Origin: Thermincola carboxydiphila
GTDB taxonomy: Bacteria; Bacillota; Thermincolia; Thermincolales; UBA2595
Direction: 5' to 3'
NCBI GenBank assembly: GCA_016841325.1
Contig: JAENZJ010000016.1
Span: 1 to 64,000 of the forward strand
Length of the DNA: 64,000 nucleotides
The notes beneath the pieces were generated by a model, which did no database searches, was not told the origin of the DNA, and saw only the letters and a program-made list of their open reading frames with translations. Every line of letters begins with the position of its first letter. Position 1 is the stretch's first letter. Below, piece after piece: positions 7,472-52,771 of this stretch. Position numbers and translations under genes: made by a program.

Positions 7472-8149
7472 TCACCTGCTTTCCATGGGCAGGACAACTA
7501 CCTTGTATAAAGGGACATCAAGGTAAACCTGTACTGCCATCATCAGACTTGCCTTTATCTCAGGGTCTGCGGCTCCTTCCGAAACCACGATGACTCCTTT
7601 AACCTCTGGCTTAAGTTCCTTAACAACCACCGGCGTCTCCTTGCTGCCCTGGGTTTCCCTTACCAGTACAATCTGGCCGTCTTCGTTTATTTCTGTTATC
7701 GTGCGGTTTGCCCCTTTCTGGTCGCGTTCCAGGGTGTCTTTCTTATTGGTACTGGTATTTACCGCATAATCCTTCTCAGTAGTAGATGCCAGATTAACGG
7801 TAACCCGGGTCTCACCGGCACCGCTGATTTGGGCTAGGGCATCTTCCAGTCGCCGGGCCAGGAGATTTTCCAGATCGGTAATCTCTGTTGCCAGCGTTTC
7901 TGTCCCGTTGCTACCTCCGCCTGGGCTGATACCACTGTCCTCCGCGGTGGTTCCCGGACCGGAAAGGTCATCTAAAGGGTCATCCGCAACTTTATCTCCT
8001 GTGTCAAAAGTATTTGCCAGTATGATCAGCAAAATACCTGCAGCTGCCGCTAGCATTAGGGTGTTCAGTCTTCTGGCGGCGTGGTTTTTTTCTCCGGATT
8101 CATTTTTGTTAGCCAGTAATTTCCTGAAATATTCCAAGATCTTGTTCAT
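7472..8149 (-). CDS. spoIIIAG: Stage III sporulation protein AG
   Basis: 225 aa. A cytoplasmic N-terminal stretch, one membrane helix at about 27-47 (TLMLAAAAGILLIILANTF), then an extracytoplasmic domain. The conserved part runs from LENLLARRLEDALAQISGAG through VIVVSEGAADPEIK to LYKVVVLPM. SpoIIIAG forms a large ring (30-fold in Bacillus) of the mother cell-forespore channel. Its ATG overlaps the spoIIIAF stop as ATGA, which indicates translational coupling. Confidence 0.92.
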   Translation of the reverse strand: MNKILEYFRKLLANKNESGEKNHAARRLNTLMLAAAAGILLIILANTFDTGDKVADDPLDDLSGPGTTAEDSGISPGGGSNGTETLATEITDLENLLARRLEDALAQISGAGETRVTVNLASTTEKDYAVNTSTNKKDTLERDQKGANRTITEINEDGQIVLVRETQGSKETPVVVKELKPEVKGVIVVSEGAADPEIKASLMMAVQVYLDVPLYKVVVLPMESR

Positions 8150-8811
8150 GGTAACACCTCCTGTTTTTTTATTTCAATTTGGTCGACTGACAGGCCGTAG
8201 AAATCAGCCACCACTTCCCTCAGCCCCCTGTCAGTGCCAGGTTTTTCAACCGATTCAGGTTCGTTTTGACCCACCTCAATTTTCACCTCTACTTCATCTA
8301 TGCTTACCTGTCCCTGGCTGTCCCCGTTTTCCAGATCCTTGGCCTCACTGTCTTTTCCTTCACCGTTTACTGCTGCCGAATCATCAATCCAGAGGATAAT
8401 TTTGTTTATTTTGCCAAAGTCAGGAGCTGCCGTATCTTCAACCATCTCAACCTGCACATCGGTCACATTGGTATCCTGATATAGTCCGGACAATGACTTT
8501 ACCTGTTTTTCCAGTTTCTCTCTATAATCATTGGCAACCCTCCTGTCCCTTGTCCGGGCCATGTCCTTACCCTGATCTATCAGGGCCTGGGTATCACCGG
8601 TTATCCCGTCAGGAACAGTATTGAGGACCTCAAAATCAAAACCGGTGTTAAATATGGCCAGAATCGGATTCAAAACGGCAATAATGATAAACAATCCAAT
8701 AATCAGATTGATATATCTTTTAATATCACTTCTGGGCAGCACGATTTCCAGAAAAGCAGTTATCAGTATAATGATCAGAATACTTTTTACCATTATCCGT
8801 AATGTTTCCAT
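8146..8811 (-). CDS. spoIIIAF: Stage III sporulation protein AF
   Basis: 221 aa. Two closely spaced N-terminal membrane helices (METLRIMVKSILIIILITAF, then YINLIIGLFIIIAVLNPIL) and a soluble C-terminal domain. It belongs to the SpoIIIA channel complex. The open frame runs on to 9075, but the extra 88 codons cross a dispersed repeat and show no homology. The ATG at 8811 has ggggagg 6 bases upstream and gives the canonical N-terminus, so I use it. It is separated from spoIIIAE by an unusual 316-base gap, while every other spacing in this operon is under 35 bases. Confidence 0.92.
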   Translation of the reverse strand: METLRIMVKSILIIILITAFLEIVLPRSDIKRYINLIIGLFIIIAVLNPILAIFNTGFDFEVLNTVPDGITGDTQALIDQGKDMARTRDRRVANDYREKLEKQVKSLSGLYQDTNVTDVQVEMVEDTAAPDFGKINKIILWIDDSAAVNGEGKDSEAKDLENGDSQGQVSIDEVEVKIEVGQNEPESVEKPGTDRGLREVVADFYGLSVDQIEIKKQEVLP

Positions 8812-8905
8812 ACAATCCTCCCCGGGTATCCTGGCTTGATCCATCGCAACAGCAGTTTTTTTCGAGCCTTCGCGCTTAAGAGTCTTTCTTTTTTCTAGGT
8901 AGGCT

Positions 8906-9123
8906 CCGGAAATGACCGTGGAATATGGTGAGGTGTTGTACAAGATTATCCTTGCAATGGCGCCGTTTATGAGTCTTTCTGCAAAACACCGGCAACAAGG
9001 CAGGGAGTCCCCGCATGTCCGAACATGGCGAAGGCAACCGGGAAGTTTTGGCCTGCCAAAACGAGAGGCGGCCATCTTTTAAGAAATACCCTACCTCACC
9101 ATGTTAATTACTGTCATTTCCCG
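8906..9123. repeat. Dispersed palindromic repeat, long copy, inside the spoIIIA operon
   Basis: The left end ggaaatgaccgtggaatatg and the inverted right end (9090-9123, ggtgag and ggaaatgac on the other strand) form terminal inverted repeats. The first 85 or so bases match the copy at 34792-34909, including tatggtgag, tgttgtacaagatt and atgagtctt. About 100 further bases, with small internal hairpins, separate that part from the right end. No open reading frame with homology is seen. It resembles a non-autonomous MITE-type or REP-like element. The rest of the spoIIIAE-spoIIIAF gap (8812-8905) holds nothing else I recognise. Confidence 0.75.
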
Positions 9124-9127
9124 GAAC

Positions 9128-10381
9128 CTACCTTAACATCAGGCTGAAATCCCCTGCCCCCACCACTATGGCGATCACAAAAAAGAACATTATTCCAACT
9201 GCTGTCACTGCCGCAAATACGATTGTCAGGCTGTTTCCCATGAGATTCAGGGAGTCGGCAATGAGTTTGTCTCCGACCGGCTGAATAACGGCTGCCGCTA
9301 TTTTGTAAATGAGCATTAATGCAACTATTTTCAGCACCGGAAAAGCACAAATAAAAAAAACGGCCAGGATTCCAATCAGTCCCACAGCATTTTTCAACAG
9401 CAGTGATGTTCCAACAACAGCTTCCAGCGCATCGGAAAAGAGCTTGCCCACCACCGGGACAAAGACCCCGATACCGAATTTTGCTGTCCTCATGGCCACA
9501 CCGTCAGCAACTGAGCCGGCTATCCCCTGGACCATCATAAAACCGAGAAACACTGTAAAAAACAGCCCCAGCAATCCCATGCTCCAGTTTTTCAGCAGAT
9601 CTGCCAGTTTGGAGACATCAACCCTGTCGGTAATTTTATTGGCAAGTCCCAAAATTACCGAAAAAAATATCAGTGGAAATACGATGTTTTTTATCAGTGT
9701 ACTGATAGTACTCAGCACTACCAGGGTAAGGGGGTGGAAGAGTGATGCCGTGGTAATATTCCCCATTGCCGTAAGCAGTGTGATCAATAGCGGGAGCATG
9801 GCATGCATAAATGACACCATATCCTCTATGGCCTGCCGTCCGGTCTGAATAGCTATGGTGAATGAACCCAGCGCCAGGGAAAGGAGGGCCAGAAAGCACA
9901 CTGACCAGGCCAGTTTGCCCACTGTTCCTTTTTCAAATGCCGACTGGACATTCTGGAGAATGGCACAGAGTACGGCAAGTATCAGCAGCTGCCCCAGCAG
10001 CCTGGAATTGGCCACCATTTCCTTAAAAAGATATTTAAACAGTCCGGAGATAATATCTCCCACACCGACACCCAGCTCCCCGCGTGCCAGTTTTGTCAGC
10101 ATTTCCTTAAAGTCCAGCTGGGGCATATATGTGTTTAGATCACGGTTCAGTTCAGCCAGGTGTTTCTCAACAGTTTCCAGGTTCAGTCCGGCCATTTGTT
10201 CCTTCAGTTCTGCTTCTGCACTCACTTCAGATGTCGCGCCGTTCGCTTCAGCCGTGTTGACCGGAGAGGCATTTGCGGCCTGTGCCGGGACTGCAGCCGG
10301 AAAACCAATACACAGTAAAACTGCCAGGCTTAACATGACCGGAATTACAAATCCCCGGAAAGCGGATTTATTTTTCAACAT
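9128..10381 (-). CDS. spoIIIAE: Stage III sporulation protein AE
   Basis: 417 aa multi-pass membrane protein. A cleavable-looking signal peptide (about residues 1-35, ending in PAQAANA), an acidic soluble segment, then about seven or eight hydrophobic helices. Conserved stretches include GLANKITDRVDVSKLADLLK and GMRTAKFGIG-like AMRTAKFGIGVFVPVVGKLF. It is a polytopic core component of the SpoIIIA-SpoIIQ channel. It lies 22 bases after spoIIIAD. The dispersed repeat begins only about 5 bases after its stop codon. Confidence 0.93.
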   Translation of the reverse strand: MLKNKSAFRGFVIPVMLSLAVLLCIGFPAAVPAQAANASPVNTAEANGATSEVSAEAELKEQMAGLNLETVEKHLAELNRDLNTYMPQLDFKEMLTKLARGELGVGVGDIISGLFKYLFKEMVANSRLLGQLLILAVLCAILQNVQSAFEKGTVGKLAWSVCFLALLSLALGSFTIAIQTGRQAIEDMVSFMHAMLPLLITLLTAMGNITTASLFHPLTLVVLSTISTLIKNIVFPLIFFSVILGLANKITDRVDVSKLADLLKNWSMGLLGLFFTVFLGFMMVQGIAGSVADGVAMRTAKFGIGVFVPVVGKLFSDALEAVVGTSLLLKNAVGLIGILAVFFICAFPVLKIVALMLIYKIAAAVIQPVGDKLIADSLNLMGNSLTIVFAAVTAVGIMFFFVIAIVVGAGDFSLMLR

Positions 10382-34703: not shown

Positions 34704-34791
34704 GTCATTTCACCTCCCCTCGTCCAAAAACGTTAATTTTTTTCAGGGTCTTATGCTTGGGACACTTTCTTTTTCCATTACGGTTGATATC

Positions 34792-34909
34792 GGAAAGTAC
34801 CGCCTGGTATGGTGAGCTGTTGTACAAGATTTTCATTGCAGTGTCGCCGTTATGAGTCTTGCTGAAAATCGGTACAACAGCTCACCATATTTGACTACCG
34901 GTCATTTCC
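34792..34909. repeat. Dispersed palindromic repeat, compact copy, inside the pilus operon
   Basis: Perfect 18-bp inverted repeats at 34808-34825 and 34872-34889 (tatggtgagctgttgtac and complement), extended outward by ggaaagtaccg / cggtcatttcc. The inner 46 bases include atgagtcttgctgaaaatc, also found in the copy at 8906-9123. No coding capacity. It lies in the 231-base gap between pilC and pilA. Confidence 0.8.
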
Positions 34910-34934
34910 GGCAGCTTCCCGCAAATGCAAAAAC

Positions 34935-44102: not shown

Positions 44103-46646
44103 TCACTGGAACCTTATGTAAACCAGGGTGCGCATCAGCATTGCTGCCGCTTCGGCACGCGTCGCCCGGGAATGGGGGGAGAATTCCCCGTTCCGGTTGC
44201 CCTTGATTATCTGTGCTCCGGCAGCTGCGGAAACAGCCGGCCTGGCCCAGTCGCTCACAGAATCCCGGTCAGTAAAGGATACATTATAATTTGTGCTACC
44301 ACTGTCTGAGGGATAGCCGGCGAACCGGACAGTCCGGGAAACCATCACCGCTATTTCCTCACGGGTTATTTCCTGATACGGCCGGAATGTCCCGTCCCGG
44401 TAACCGTTAATCAAGCCCGCTACAGCTGCACTGTTCACTGCTTCAGCATACCATTCCCCGGAAACATCACTGAATACTCGTTTGTCCGTACCGTCTGTGA
44501 TTCCGAGGGCACGCACCAGAAGTGCGGCAAATTCGGCACGGGTGACTTTCCCGCCAGGGTCGAAGGTATCGCTATCTTTTCCGGTAACAATAAGCCGTGA
44601 TGCCAGTCTTTCAATATCCTTTCTCGCCCAGTGGTTCCTAAGGTCTATAAAGGTTTTTTGTCCTGTAACCACGGTATACCAGCCATTATCCCGGTGTTTG
44701 ATAATCGCACCGGCTTTACCCCCATCGGTCCCAAAAACCGCCGGAACAGGAGATAACATTTTGGTTACCGGATTGTACCGGACAGCTCCGGAAATATCTG
44801 AATTAACACTGTAACCCATGCCCAGAAAACGTTTTGTATAGCCGTCAAAGCCGCTGATCTCCAGTCTCTGTCCGTTGTCAGCCACTGCCCCGGCCCGAAA
44901 TTCAACAGGTATGGCTGTCATCATGAACCCCTGCCTGCTGACCTCCTGTCTTACTTCGCCTGCCATTGCTTCCTCTGCAGTGCTGATGGTTATTGCTATG
45001 CTGAAATTCTCCAGAGGCGCACCCAGTTTGGTTGATAAATTCTCAACATTTACAGCCGACACGGGCAGGTCAAAGGAACCGGCCGGTACAGCCACCCGGA
45101 TGACAGCCGAAGGCTTGCTCCGGTGCAGGGCGGCAATTACGTCTGCCGGAATTTCTGTGGTAATGCTCCGGCTGTCACTGTGCACCTGAATCACATAAAC
45201 ATTTGCTCCCGGGTCTGCAAGATCTATAAATTCACTGAGGGTACCACTGTCAACCTTAACCGGTCCCGCCCCTTCGGAGAAATCAGTATAACTGATTGTG
45301 GTAAGCCGCTCCGACGGTTCCGGGACAGGTATTACACTACCACCGCCCTCATACGGGCTGTCTTCAATGTCATTAGCTCCTTCACTGTTTTCCGTATTTG
45401 TATCACCGTCATCCGGGCCTGCCGGTTCCGGGAGACTACCGCCATTGCCGGGCACAGCACCCCCGATATCTCCCACACTGCCACCTGCCGAAATGGAAGT
45501 GAGTTTTTGCGGCAAAGTAACTGCATCAGGCTTGTTATCCTGGCTGCCCGGCTGAGTCAGGCCCCACTGCCAGAAACTGCCGTCACTCTGAAGGGCTATG
45601 GTATGGTTCTGTCCGCCGGCGACTGATACTATGCCCGTTAGCCCCGGTACTTTAACAGGGACAGTACTGTTACCTGTTGTTCCGTTCCCAAGCTGTCCCT
45701 GGCTGTTGGCCCCCCAGCCCCAGACTGTCCCTTCCCGGGTCAGGGCCATAGAATAGGAGAAACCTGCATTAATTGCCACCGCGTCCGTTAAACCGGAAAC
45801 CCTGACAGGCAGGTTCCGGTTTGTCGTGGTTCCATCACCTGCCTGCCCGGTACTGTTAGCCCCCCACGCCCAAACAGTACCGTCATTTTTCAAGGCAATC
45901 ACATGGTTTTCACCCGATGCCAGTGAGGTAACTCCTGACAGCCCGCTGACCATTACCGGGACCGGGCTGTCTGTCGTAGTGCCGTCACCGAGCTGTCCCA
46001 TCCTGTTGCTTCCCCAGGCCCAGACAGTACCGTCACTTTTCAGGGCTGCCGTGTGATAGGCACCTCCGGTGACCGCAATAATATCCGTAAGGCCTTCCAC
46101 CATTACCGGTACAAGGCTGTTGGTAGTTGTCCCGTCACCGAGCTGACCACACTCGTTGCTGCCCCAGGCCCAAACGGTGCCGTCACTTTTCAGGGCAATG
46201 GTGTGGCTGCCTCCCCTGGAAATATCCCTGACACCGCTTAGGTTTAAAACCTTTACGGGTATTGAACTGTTGCTTGTTGTTCCGTTTCCCAACTGGCCGT
46301 ACATGTTACTTCCCCAGGCCCAGACTGTACCGTCATTTTTCAGGGCTGCCGAATGGTAATAGCCTGCAGTAAGTGCAGTCACCCCACTCAGGTCCCTTAC
46401 CTGGACCGGTTCGGTACTGCCGGTTGTGGTCCCATCTCCCAGCTGGCCCTGGTGATTCCAGCCCCAGGCCCACACCGTACCGTCATTTTTAAGGGCAATC
46501 GTATGGTTATAACCGGCGGCAATTCGCGAAGTTCCCGAATCTGCCACGGCATCTGAAATACCCGGATAAAAACAAGTAAGCAGAAGCATTACTGTTAGAA
46601 ATACAGCAAAACCTTTTCGGACTATGTATAATTTAATTTTCCCCAT
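44103..46646 (-). CDS. Secreted RCC1-repeat protein with three C-terminal SLH domains
   Basis: 847 aa. Signal peptide (about 1-36), seven RCC1-type beta-propeller repeats (about 41-375; unit ALKNDGTVWAWGSN.GQLGDG), a Gly/Pro/Asp-rich linker (390-445), a beta domain of about 200 residues and three SLH domains from about 665 (RNHWARKDIERLASRLIVTG, VTRAEFAALLVRALGITD, ITREEIAVMVSRTVRFAG, ATRAEAAAMLMRTL). SLH domains bind secondary cell wall polymer, so the propeller is displayed on the surface. RCC1 propellers serve as binding platforms; the partner here is unknown. The stop codon abuts the acyl-CoA synthetase remnant. Confidence 0.88.
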   Translation of the reverse strand: MGKIKLYIVRKGFAVFLTVMLLLTCFYPGISDAVADSGTSRIAAGYNHTIALKNDGTVWAWGWNHQGQLGDGTTTGSTEPVQVRDLSGVTALTAGYYHSAALKNDGTVWAWGSNMYGQLGNGTTSNSSIPVKVLNLSGVRDISRGGSHTIALKSDGTVWAWGSNECGQLGDGTTTNSLVPVMVEGLTDIIAVTGGAYHTAALKSDGTVWAWGSNRMGQLGDGTTTDSPVPVMVSGLSGVTSLASGENHVIALKNDGTVWAWGANSTGQAGDGTTTNRNLPVRVSGLTDAVAINAGFSYSMALTREGTVWGWGANSQGQLGNGTTGNSTVPVKVPGLTGIVSVAGGQNHTIALQSDGSFWQWGLTQPGSQDNKPDAVTLPQKLTSISAGGSVGDIGGAVPGNGGSLPEPAGPDDGDTNTENSEGANDIEDSPYEGGGSVIPVPEPSERLTTISYTDFSEGAGPVKVDSGTLSEFIDLADPGANVYVIQVHSDSRSITTEIPADVIAALHRSKPSAVIRVAVPAGSFDLPVSAVNVENLSTKLGAPLENFSIAITISTAEEAMAGEVRQEVSRQGFMMTAIPVEFRAGAVADNGQRLEISGFDGYTKRFLGMGYSVNSDISGAVRYNPVTKMLSPVPAVFGTDGGKAGAIIKHRDNGWYTVVTGQKTFIDLRNHWARKDIERLASRLIVTGKDSDTFDPGGKVTRAEFAALLVRALGITDGTDKRVFSDVSGEWYAEAVNSAAVAGLINGYRDGTFRPYQEITREEIAVMVSRTVRFAGYPSDSGSTNYNVSFTDRDSVSDWARPAVSAAAGAQIIKGNRNGEFSPHSRATRAEAAAMLMRTLVYIRFQ
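45521..46526. repeat. Tandem coding repeats of about 153 bases (RCC1 units)
   Basis: Seven copies of a 50-51-residue unit within the RCC1/SLH gene. The DNA is repetitive (for example cccaggcccagac.gtaccgtca recurs in short stretches), so the region may vary in copy number by recombination. Confidence 0.75.
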
Positions 46647-51331: not shown

Positions 51332-52771
51332 TTATTTGATACCCGGTTCCATCTCCCTAATTTTTTTGTCTATCTCTTCAGGTATACTGTCCGGAGTATG
51401 ATTTTCAAGAATCTGGCGGGCCACTTCCTCAGCCAGGGTCCAGGTATCTTTACAACCTGCCTGTTCCCAGCCAGCATAATTCGTCCTGTTTGATACCTTG
51501 GGATAATAGAACTCCGTTCGCATCTTTTTTGCTGTCTGTTTTTCAGCCAGGAAGTTGCCTCCAGGTCCCACCTTTGTAATAACCTCAGCTGCAAGAGTAT
51601 ATTCATCAACTTCAATACCCCGTACAGCACGCATTACCTGTCCATTGATATCATTGTCAATTACATACTGGGCATAACTGATTGTCATCCCGCTGTCCAG
51701 CTGGCCTGCGGCCTCATGAATAAAATTGGCCCCTGCAAGTGCCGGCATAAGGGCTGTCAGCACCTTTTCATATCCAGCCTGCTGATCAGGCTGTTTGGAG
51801 TCACTGATACCGCCTGTAGAATAAAGCGGAAGCTTGTAGAACTGGGCCATCTGAGCTGCAGCAGCATTCATTATTCCTGACTCCACACTTCCAAAAAGGA
51901 AGGACATGGTCTGCATATCCATTATTGTAGGCACAGCGGAATATAAAATTGGCGCTCCCGGATGTACCAACTGGCTGAGAACCACGCCTGACAGGGCTTC
52001 CGCATTTAACTGGACCAGTGTTCCGGCCAGGGTGACAGGTGAAGTCGCTCCTGCCAGGGGAGCACACGATGTGGCAACGGGAAGCCCGGCTTTGGAAATC
52101 TTCATCAACATCCGGGTGCGCACATCATCAAATTTTAGAGGACTAAGGATACTGGAAATAAAAGATATAAACGGTCTCTCAACCAATTTATCTAGGCCCC
52201 CGGCAATCTCTGCCGCCATATTAATTACGCGGTCAACCCCGTCCTCAGTAAAGAGGCCGCCCATGATAGGTTTGGTAGTATTGTTTATTGAATGATAGAA
52301 ACGATTAACATCCACTACCTCAGTGTCGAGTTCATTAGGATAACATGGAATTACAAAAAAGTGTATATTGTCAAGTCCGTTAATCAAGCGGGCAGTTTTC
52401 GCAATATCTTCTACAGTTGTTTTTCTGCGTTTCCGGTCAAAGTCTATAACATTGAGAGCCGTACCCCCGGTACCCATATAAACCTTTGTCCCGCCCAAAG
52501 TGATATTTCTGGAGTCATCACCTCTACCGTAAATGGTCACTGTAGAAGGCGCCGTTTCTACTGCCTGCATTACCAAATCTTCATTAAAACAGGCCCTGTT
52601 TCTGTCATAGTCCACCCTGGCCCCTTTTTCGGCACAGAGATCCAAAGCTGCCCGTTCGTGAATCTCAACCCCGGCTTCAGCCAAAACGGTCATCGAAGCC
52701 TGATGAATCTTTTTAATGTCTTCATCGGTCAGGAATTTTAAAGCATTAGATTCTATTCCGCCTTTAAGCAT
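51332..52771 (-). CDS. Non-pyrrolysine MttB-family methyltransferase
   Basis: 479 aa of the trimethylamine methyltransferase (MttB) superfamily. The frame has no in-frame UAG, so it is not a pyrrolysine enzyme; such homologues (MtgB, MtpB, MtcB, MtyB) demethylate glycine betaine, proline betaine, carnitine or butyrobetaine. Seen: SCAPLAGATSPVTLAGTL, LVHPGAPILYSAVPTIMDM and GGISDSKQPDQQAGYEK. It would move a methyl group from a quaternary amine to the corrinoid protein encoded just upstream (27 bases). ATG at 52771 has aaaggaggggg 7 bases upstream. The substrate cannot be told from the sequence alone. Confidence 0.9.
   Translation of the reverse strand: MLKGGIESNALKFLTDEDIKKIHQASMTVLAEAGVEIHERAALDLCAEKGARVDYDRNRACFNEDLVMQAVETAPSTVTIYGRGDDSRNITLGGTKVYMGTGGTALNVIDFDRKRRKTTVEDIAKTARLINGLDNIHFFVIPCYPNELDTEVVDVNRFYHSINNTTKPIMGGLFTEDGVDRVINMAAEIAGGLDKLVERPFISFISSILSPLKFDDVRTRMLMKISKAGLPVATSCAPLAGATSPVTLAGTLVQLNAEALSGVVLSQLVHPGAPILYSAVPTIMDMQTMSFLFGSVESGIMNAAAAQMAQFYKLPLYSTGGISDSKQPDQQAGYEKVLTALMPALAGANFIHEAAGQLDSGMTISYAQYVIDNDINGQVMRAVRGIEVDEYTLAAEVITKVGPGGNFLAEKQTAKKMRTEFYYPKVSNRTNYAGWEQAGCKDTWTLAEEVARQILENHTPDSIPEEIDKKIREMEPGIK

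Follow-up and report, generated by a model that had tools for sequence, protein, structure and literature searches.

A decaying MITE-like palindromic repeat probably explains the long spoIIIAE-spoIIIAF gap in Thermincola

In the sporulation operon spoIIIA of Thermincola carboxydiphila, one intergenic spacing is far longer than all the others, which raises the question of what fills it, how it arose and whether it affects the genes downstream. The window analysed here comprises 64,000 nucleotides (positions 1 to 64,000 of the forward strand of contig JAENZJ010000016.1, assembly GCA_016841325.1) and carries the operon on its minus strand, as established with a list of open reading frames (ORFs) and NCBIfam models. 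The genes AA to AE were named by models above their cut-offs, AF and AG (145.8 versus 147.7 bits for the latter) fell just under theirs, and the model search of the operon gave no NCBIfam match for AH. According to the ORFs, AA-AB, AB-AC, AC-AD and AD-AE are separated by 33, 24, 14 and 22 nt, AF and AG overlap by 4 nt, and AG and AH lie 4 nt apart. The initial annotation was therefore right in describing the 316-nt gap between AE and AF (8812-9127) as the only long spacing, the rest ranging from -4 to 33 nt. It had also warned of 88 misleading codons at the beginning of AF, and in fact the ORF encodes 309 amino acids compared with 221 for AF, with the AF model spanning only residues 91-193 of the extended frame. 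This false N-terminal extension of SpoIIIAF is an annotation trap that is now accounted for. The coordinates of the features are collected in Table 1.

Table 1. Features of the spoIIIAE-spoIIIAF region and a related copy elsewhere in the window
Feature	Position	Strand	Basis or remark
spoIIIAE	9128..10381	-	NCBIfam TIGR02829, 380.5 bits
AE stop codon TAG	9128-9130	-	inside element terminus
spoIIIAF	8146..8811	-	NCBIfam TIGR02896, 58.5 bits (cut-off 61.3); relatives align from Met at 8811
AF start codon ATG	8809-8811	-	true start at 8811
spurious AF frame extension	8812-9075	-	upstream of true AF start
shortened palindromic element	8897..9133	- (core strand = operon strand)	inverted repeats, profile and core-model matches
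left terminal arm (core-strand sense)	9118..9133	-	pairs with 8897-8912; 16 nt, 88% complementary
right terminal arm	8897..8912	-	pairs with 9118-9133
likely degraded A-rich tail, then AF ribosome-binding site	8812..8896	-	resembles tail consensus
second family copy, reduced to short palindrome	34770..34925	-	full-length copy in the same place in G001 (L124)

The operon is split between AE and AF, as had been proposed, by a repeat element, which is expected to lie inside the spoIIIA transcript. Besides the terminal arms, two further pairs of inverted-repeat arms are recognisable in this copy (8908-8919/9110-9121 and 8922-8934/9093-9105), and the inner left arm is mostly gone. The profile of the repeat family matches it at about 8885-9091 on the minus strand (locus L001, 1496-1702; model positions 157-362), and a model of the family core does so at 8989-9142 with 72.8 bits. 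The description of the gap as mostly palindromic repeat holds for the greater part of its length, but about 8812-8896 consists of tail and AF leader, in which the AF ribosome-binding site GGGGAGG is retained (about 8816-8823). Likewise, the element had been placed within 8812-9127, and it does lie there except at one end, where it reaches about 9133, its terminus including the AE stop codon.

Folded as RNA, the gap of the window's genome gives -111.1 kcal/mol (z -2.93), and 1 of 100 shuffles is as good. The corresponding z value is -2.75 in a second species of the genus and -0.99, hardly better than shuffled sequence, in a third, compared with -13.9 (-187.8 kcal/mol) for an intact copy of the family. 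No intrinsic terminator, sought as a GC stem followed by a T run, was predicted on either strand between 8700 and 9300.

Two other features of the window were recorded. Positions 51709-51806 (minus strand) match PYLIS_3, the pyrrolysine insertion sequence of mttB, with 49.9 bits, and from its sequence the genome probably uses pyrrolysine. In addition, six copies of a 107-nt repeat occur at 45649-46505 with an exact spacing of 150 nt, and this region therefore probably encodes a protein of 50-residue repeats.

The comparison covered ten genomes of the class: three species of the genus Thermincola (g1), namely the window's genome (G000; 49 contigs, 3.43 Mb) and its congeners G001 and G002, and seven genomes from elsewhere in the class. 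Intact copies of the element are near-perfect hairpins of about 345 bp that hold no gene and are dispersed between genes. In the window's own genome, 39 matches were found at E<=0.001, some of them being the two halves of one palindrome, and the best match of the window element elsewhere in that genome reached E values down to 6e-62. As a member of this repeat family, the inverted repeat of the window is more than a product of chance. The core model, of 142 positions, matched six of the ten class genomes (G000 10, G001 23, G002 23, G004 23, G009 28 and G006 1), in counts that include some partial or reverse matches and miss copies that have lost the core. Under filters stricter than those of the class search, the remaining 392 of the 398 phylum genomes gave no match. 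The copies of G004 and G009 hold the same core between different outer arms, and conservation of the core across two families amounts to a mean column identity of 79%, unpaired bases included.

Rfam gave no match for the main core, either in the window or in any of 20 element loci, and the plasmid and phage collections gave none to the element. Two IMG/VR contigs that share a 20-mer of the core were set aside as chance, since the core model found nothing credible in them (best E 0.52). Those parts of the literature on Thermincola palindromic or interspersed repeats that were accessible contained no description of the element. The family is thus a new addition, specific to this lineage, to the small mobile repeats of palindromic type.

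Several observations concern individual copies. The single copy of G006 (L036, contig C183) is nearly identical to one of G009 (L046, contig C33), shared flanks included, in spite of the two genomes belonging to different families; either a contaminated G006 assembly or a transfer is possible. Locus L135 (contig C9 of G002) holds two full-length copies that are 92% alike, their starts separated by about 1.3 kb, and a partial third copy close by. On contigs C14, C40 and C1 of G009, core copies fall within the first 30-220 bases, and the repeat therefore probably breaks assemblies.

The history of the spoIIIA site can be followed across the ten genomes, with gap lengths for minus-strand matches read from coordinates. 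In the three Thermincola species the AE-AF gap measures 316, 257 and 239 nt and always contains element sequence, whereas in the other seven it measures 4, 4, 13, 15, 25, 27 and 118 nt and the element is absent from all of them. The gap of 118 nt, found in G004, is occupied by an unrelated repeat of the GAGTGG type. The initial annotation had considered that relatives might show an equally long gap lacking the repeat; none does, as the element and the long gap occur together in three of three species, and in seven of seven other genomes the element is absent and the gap does not exceed 118 nt. The long gap thus comes with the repeat. The insertion lies exactly at the stop codon of AE and leaves the AE protein unchanged: in the three species with the insertion the codon is a TAG that belongs to the element terminus, and the relatives lacking the element have TGA or TAA in its place.

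Different interior parts of the spoIIIA copy have been lost in each of the three species, the profile positions kept being 157-362 in G000, 21-158 plus 306-354 in G001, and 204-360 in G002. Because each keeps something that another has lost, the three copies would derive from a longer ancestor shortened independently in every species. We do not claim that the spoIIIA copies are short because the full hairpin is harmful, since shortened copies are frequent at other sites of G000 and copies devoid of the core escape the core model. Downstream of the palindrome, the resemblance to the A-rich tail consensus of the family was compared with 2000 simple shuffles per genome, of which 2 (G000), 131 (G001) and 11 (G002) scored as well as the real sequence. 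On this similarity, the stretch is likely to be an A-rich tail in G000 and G002; in G001 the similarity to the consensus is not significant.

Mobility of the element was addressed by querying ten sites as joined flanks in three genomes. Readable empty alleles appeared at four of the ten: site L131 is empty in G001 and G000, and sites L114, L120 and L116 are empty in G000. The element has therefore moved. Besides the palindrome, the inserted unit contains about 45-105 nt to the right of it in core-strand sense, and many copies in Thermincola are indeed followed by an A-rich tail of that length, which is part of the insertion. A 68-nt query taken from the tail had 29 matches in the three genomes; these followed main-core copies, copies with a different core or short bare hairpins, and a few of them stood where no palindrome could be recognised. 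The tail at L181, read on the opposite strand, looks like a terminator-like hairpin. At L181 and L189, the region upstream of the tail contains a GAAC-N4-GTTC motif, which we take to resemble a LexA box. The insertion junctions show overlaps of 0-3 nt at three sites and unaligned bases at L116, with no clean target duplication. An enzyme of the RAYT type was rejected as the driver, since Y1_Tnp had no matches in G000 and G004, where the element is present, and was found in G003 and G005, where it is absent; no moving enzyme was found in a transposase search that covered Y1_Tnp only.

These properties place the element close to several known systems without equating it to any of them. Like bacterial MITEs such as Chunjie from Geobacter uraniireducens, it is short and intergenic, has terminal inverted repeats and is accompanied by many partial copies; it holds no gene in its about 345 bp, the only frame being the spurious AF extension, and its insertion is polymorphic between close relatives (L131, L114, L120 and L116). 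It differs from MITEs of the Chunjie type in that no clean target duplication and, within the Y1_Tnp search, no parent transposase was found, in arm ends that are matched copy by copy, and in an A-rich tail that lies outside the inverted repeats. With the BOX elements of Streptococcus (boxA-boxB-boxC), as described in PMC3049150, it shares, in a comparison of architecture only, a composite structure with constant ends and a variable middle, a transcribed hairpin and a location inside operons. However, it exchanges its middle core instead of carrying tandem repeats, and its arms are long and complementary along their entire length. REP/RAYT palindromes are also extragenic and dispersed over the genome, but REPs are given as 20-40 bp in PMC3733652, and the presence of a Y1 transposase does not track the Thermincola element.

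The orientation of the copies was examined in relation to the neighbouring genes. In G001 and G002, 39 copies were scored, 31 of which lie between co-directional genes, and the core strand runs in gene sense in 26 of these 31 (binomial p 0.0002, with three or more orthologous pairs entering the count twice). An upstream stop codon is located within about 25 nt of the element edge in 18 of the 26 by hand count, as at AE. A cruder ORF call over G000-G002 classified 52 copies as 30 sense, 8 antisense and 14 mixed. Replication direction was discarded as the cause of the bias, as all seven copies between lagging-strand genes follow the genes; the core strand agrees with the leading strand in 23 copies versus 16. 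Nor is the bias class-wide, since it is absent in G004 (3 to 3) and G009 (5 to 7). This count drew on 15 of 23 and 20 of 28 matches, respectively; of these, 5 and 3 were flanked by a gene on one side only, and 4 and 5 had neighbouring genes of mixed direction. The sense bias therefore belongs to Thermincola, the genus in which the tail is seen, and either target choice or selection could be its cause.

A different kind of evidence comes from the arms. In 42 usable copies out of 45, the two arms of a copy fit each other better than the arms of other copies, exceeding all 10,000 permutations. The mean score was 8.90 for own versus 5.87 for crossed arms in the outer 24 nt (highest permuted mean 7.21), and 19.07 versus 15.09 in the inner 36 nt (highest permuted mean 16.40). 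The alignment of 29 cores contains 43 pairs, 18 of them with changes on both sides. In a functional RNA, G-U combinations should be far more numerous than A-C ones. In the core, however, 19 G-U and 16 A-C cells were equally rare relative to 1193 Watson-Crick cells, and whole copies (n=18) gave 28 and 18, respectively. Template switching during replication has been reported to copy one arm of a palindrome onto the other and to invert the spacer (PMC8604942; see also PMC8794818). Because own arms match and G-U is hardly commoner than A-C, the arm pattern would fit template-switch repair better than selection on an RNA. Cores that are reversed in G000 at two shared sites (L003 versus L129/L148, and L006 versus L125/L140) fit template switching as well. 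Nevertheless, the flipped pairs are only 81-83% alike, no more than random copies, and each flip may for this reason represent an exchange or a new or second insertion.

The middle of the palindrome can also be replaced. Loci L012, L013 and L019 have the outer arms of the family around another core, which contains two hairpins with AYGGA-type loops, at L012 and L019, and resembles the Rfam family TwoAYGGAY (RF01731), scoring 43.4 bits at L012, over the cut-off of 43, and 39.9 bits, under it, at L019. The window copy and the main-core copies differ from this RNA in giving no match in Rfam, and four further tail-bearing loci (L180, L183, L191 and L199) gave nothing either. The general statement that TwoAYGGAY is the family was consequently rejected, and the resemblance is regarded as a lead and not as a result. 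At L041 (2140-2660), a palindrome flanked by main core seems to hold a second palindrome, with a TwoAYGGAY-like stretch at 2353-2510 below the cut-off (39.9 bits), and nesting of repeats is possible there. TwoAYGGAY has been proposed on motif grounds to bind CsrA (PMC4333381). The csrA gene is present in seven of seven good class genomes, with or without the element. It is conceivable, if improbable, that a mobile hairpin frame with interchangeable structured cores (a deeply conserved one, and one like the proposed CsrA-binding TwoAYGGAY RNA), inserted between stop codon and ribosome-binding site in gene sense, spreads ready-made cassettes of RNA control through operons, the essential sporulation operon included, with a palindrome geometry by which the arms would be rewritten and the core flipped during replication.

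Taking these lines of evidence together, the gap quite probably holds an ancient copy, now in decay, of a MITE-like palindromic repeat restricted to this lineage, a copy that is tolerated and has at most a mild effect. A single insertion would have occurred before the split of the genus and would have been tolerated for its position between the stop codon and the ribosome-binding site, and the copy would now be eroding. Its arms would have been kept complementary by template switching of the DNA polymerase, which perhaps also flips the core, and not by selection on RNA. Once transcribed with spoIIIA, it would probably fold into a hairpin of moderate stability upstream of AF, and any influence on mRNA processing or on the AF level would probably be mild at most. 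A palindrome arising by chance, or an ordinary long spacer with no repeat, could be read from the fold z of the window copy, which is only -2.93, but this reading can practically be dismissed given the many matches in the same genome and the gaps of 4-27 nt (118 nt once) in relatives lacking the element. We also hold it unlikely that the element is a regulatory hairpin under selection, by which the mRNA would be attenuated or cut between AE and AF and the level of AF-AH lowered. In its favour are that the element would be part of the transcript, that all three species carry it at this site, that the fold beats shuffles in G000 and G001, that the core strand follows gene direction in Thermincola, and that BIMEs, ERIC and Correia elements have been reported to attenuate or cut transcripts (PMC3049150). 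Against this stand the loss of a different part in each species, a fold in G002 that is not significant, the lack of a predicted terminator, the intact AF ribosome-binding site and the missing sense bias in G004 and G009.

There is likewise little probability that the family acts as a structured RNA, or as single-stranded DNA, with a conserved core that serves the cell, the spoIIIA copy being a degenerate paralogue. The pairs changed on both sides, a core conserved across families and the variant core resembling TwoAYGGAY within the same arms speak for it; G-U hardly commoner than A-C, a main core with no Rfam match, random orientation outside Thermincola, the many partial copies and the four loci that lack TwoAYGGAY speak against it. 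The explanation by a decaying mobile repeat has counterpoints of its own, as the core identity of 79%, unpaired bases included, suggests more than pure drift, and selection on RNA could also produce the sense bias of the genus (26/31). As for the proposal that the element lowers or uncouples the expression of AF, AG and AH, it would appear mildly disfavoured. For AG and AH, a separate internal promoter has been reported in B. subtilis and in C. difficile (PMC4605598, PMC6934232), and if that holds here, mainly AF would be exposed to a polar effect. Effects of such repeats on operons have been reported in both directions (PMC3049150, PMC10969869).

A repeat family with no Rfam match is now documented in these bacteria. 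With many copies per genome, with alleles in closely related species that range from empty or full to shortened or flipped, and with arms that co-evolve copy by copy, it is well suited to the study of how long palindromes persist. Should the alternative cores or the sense bias turn out to be functional, the family would moreover offer a route for distributing RNA regulators through operons.
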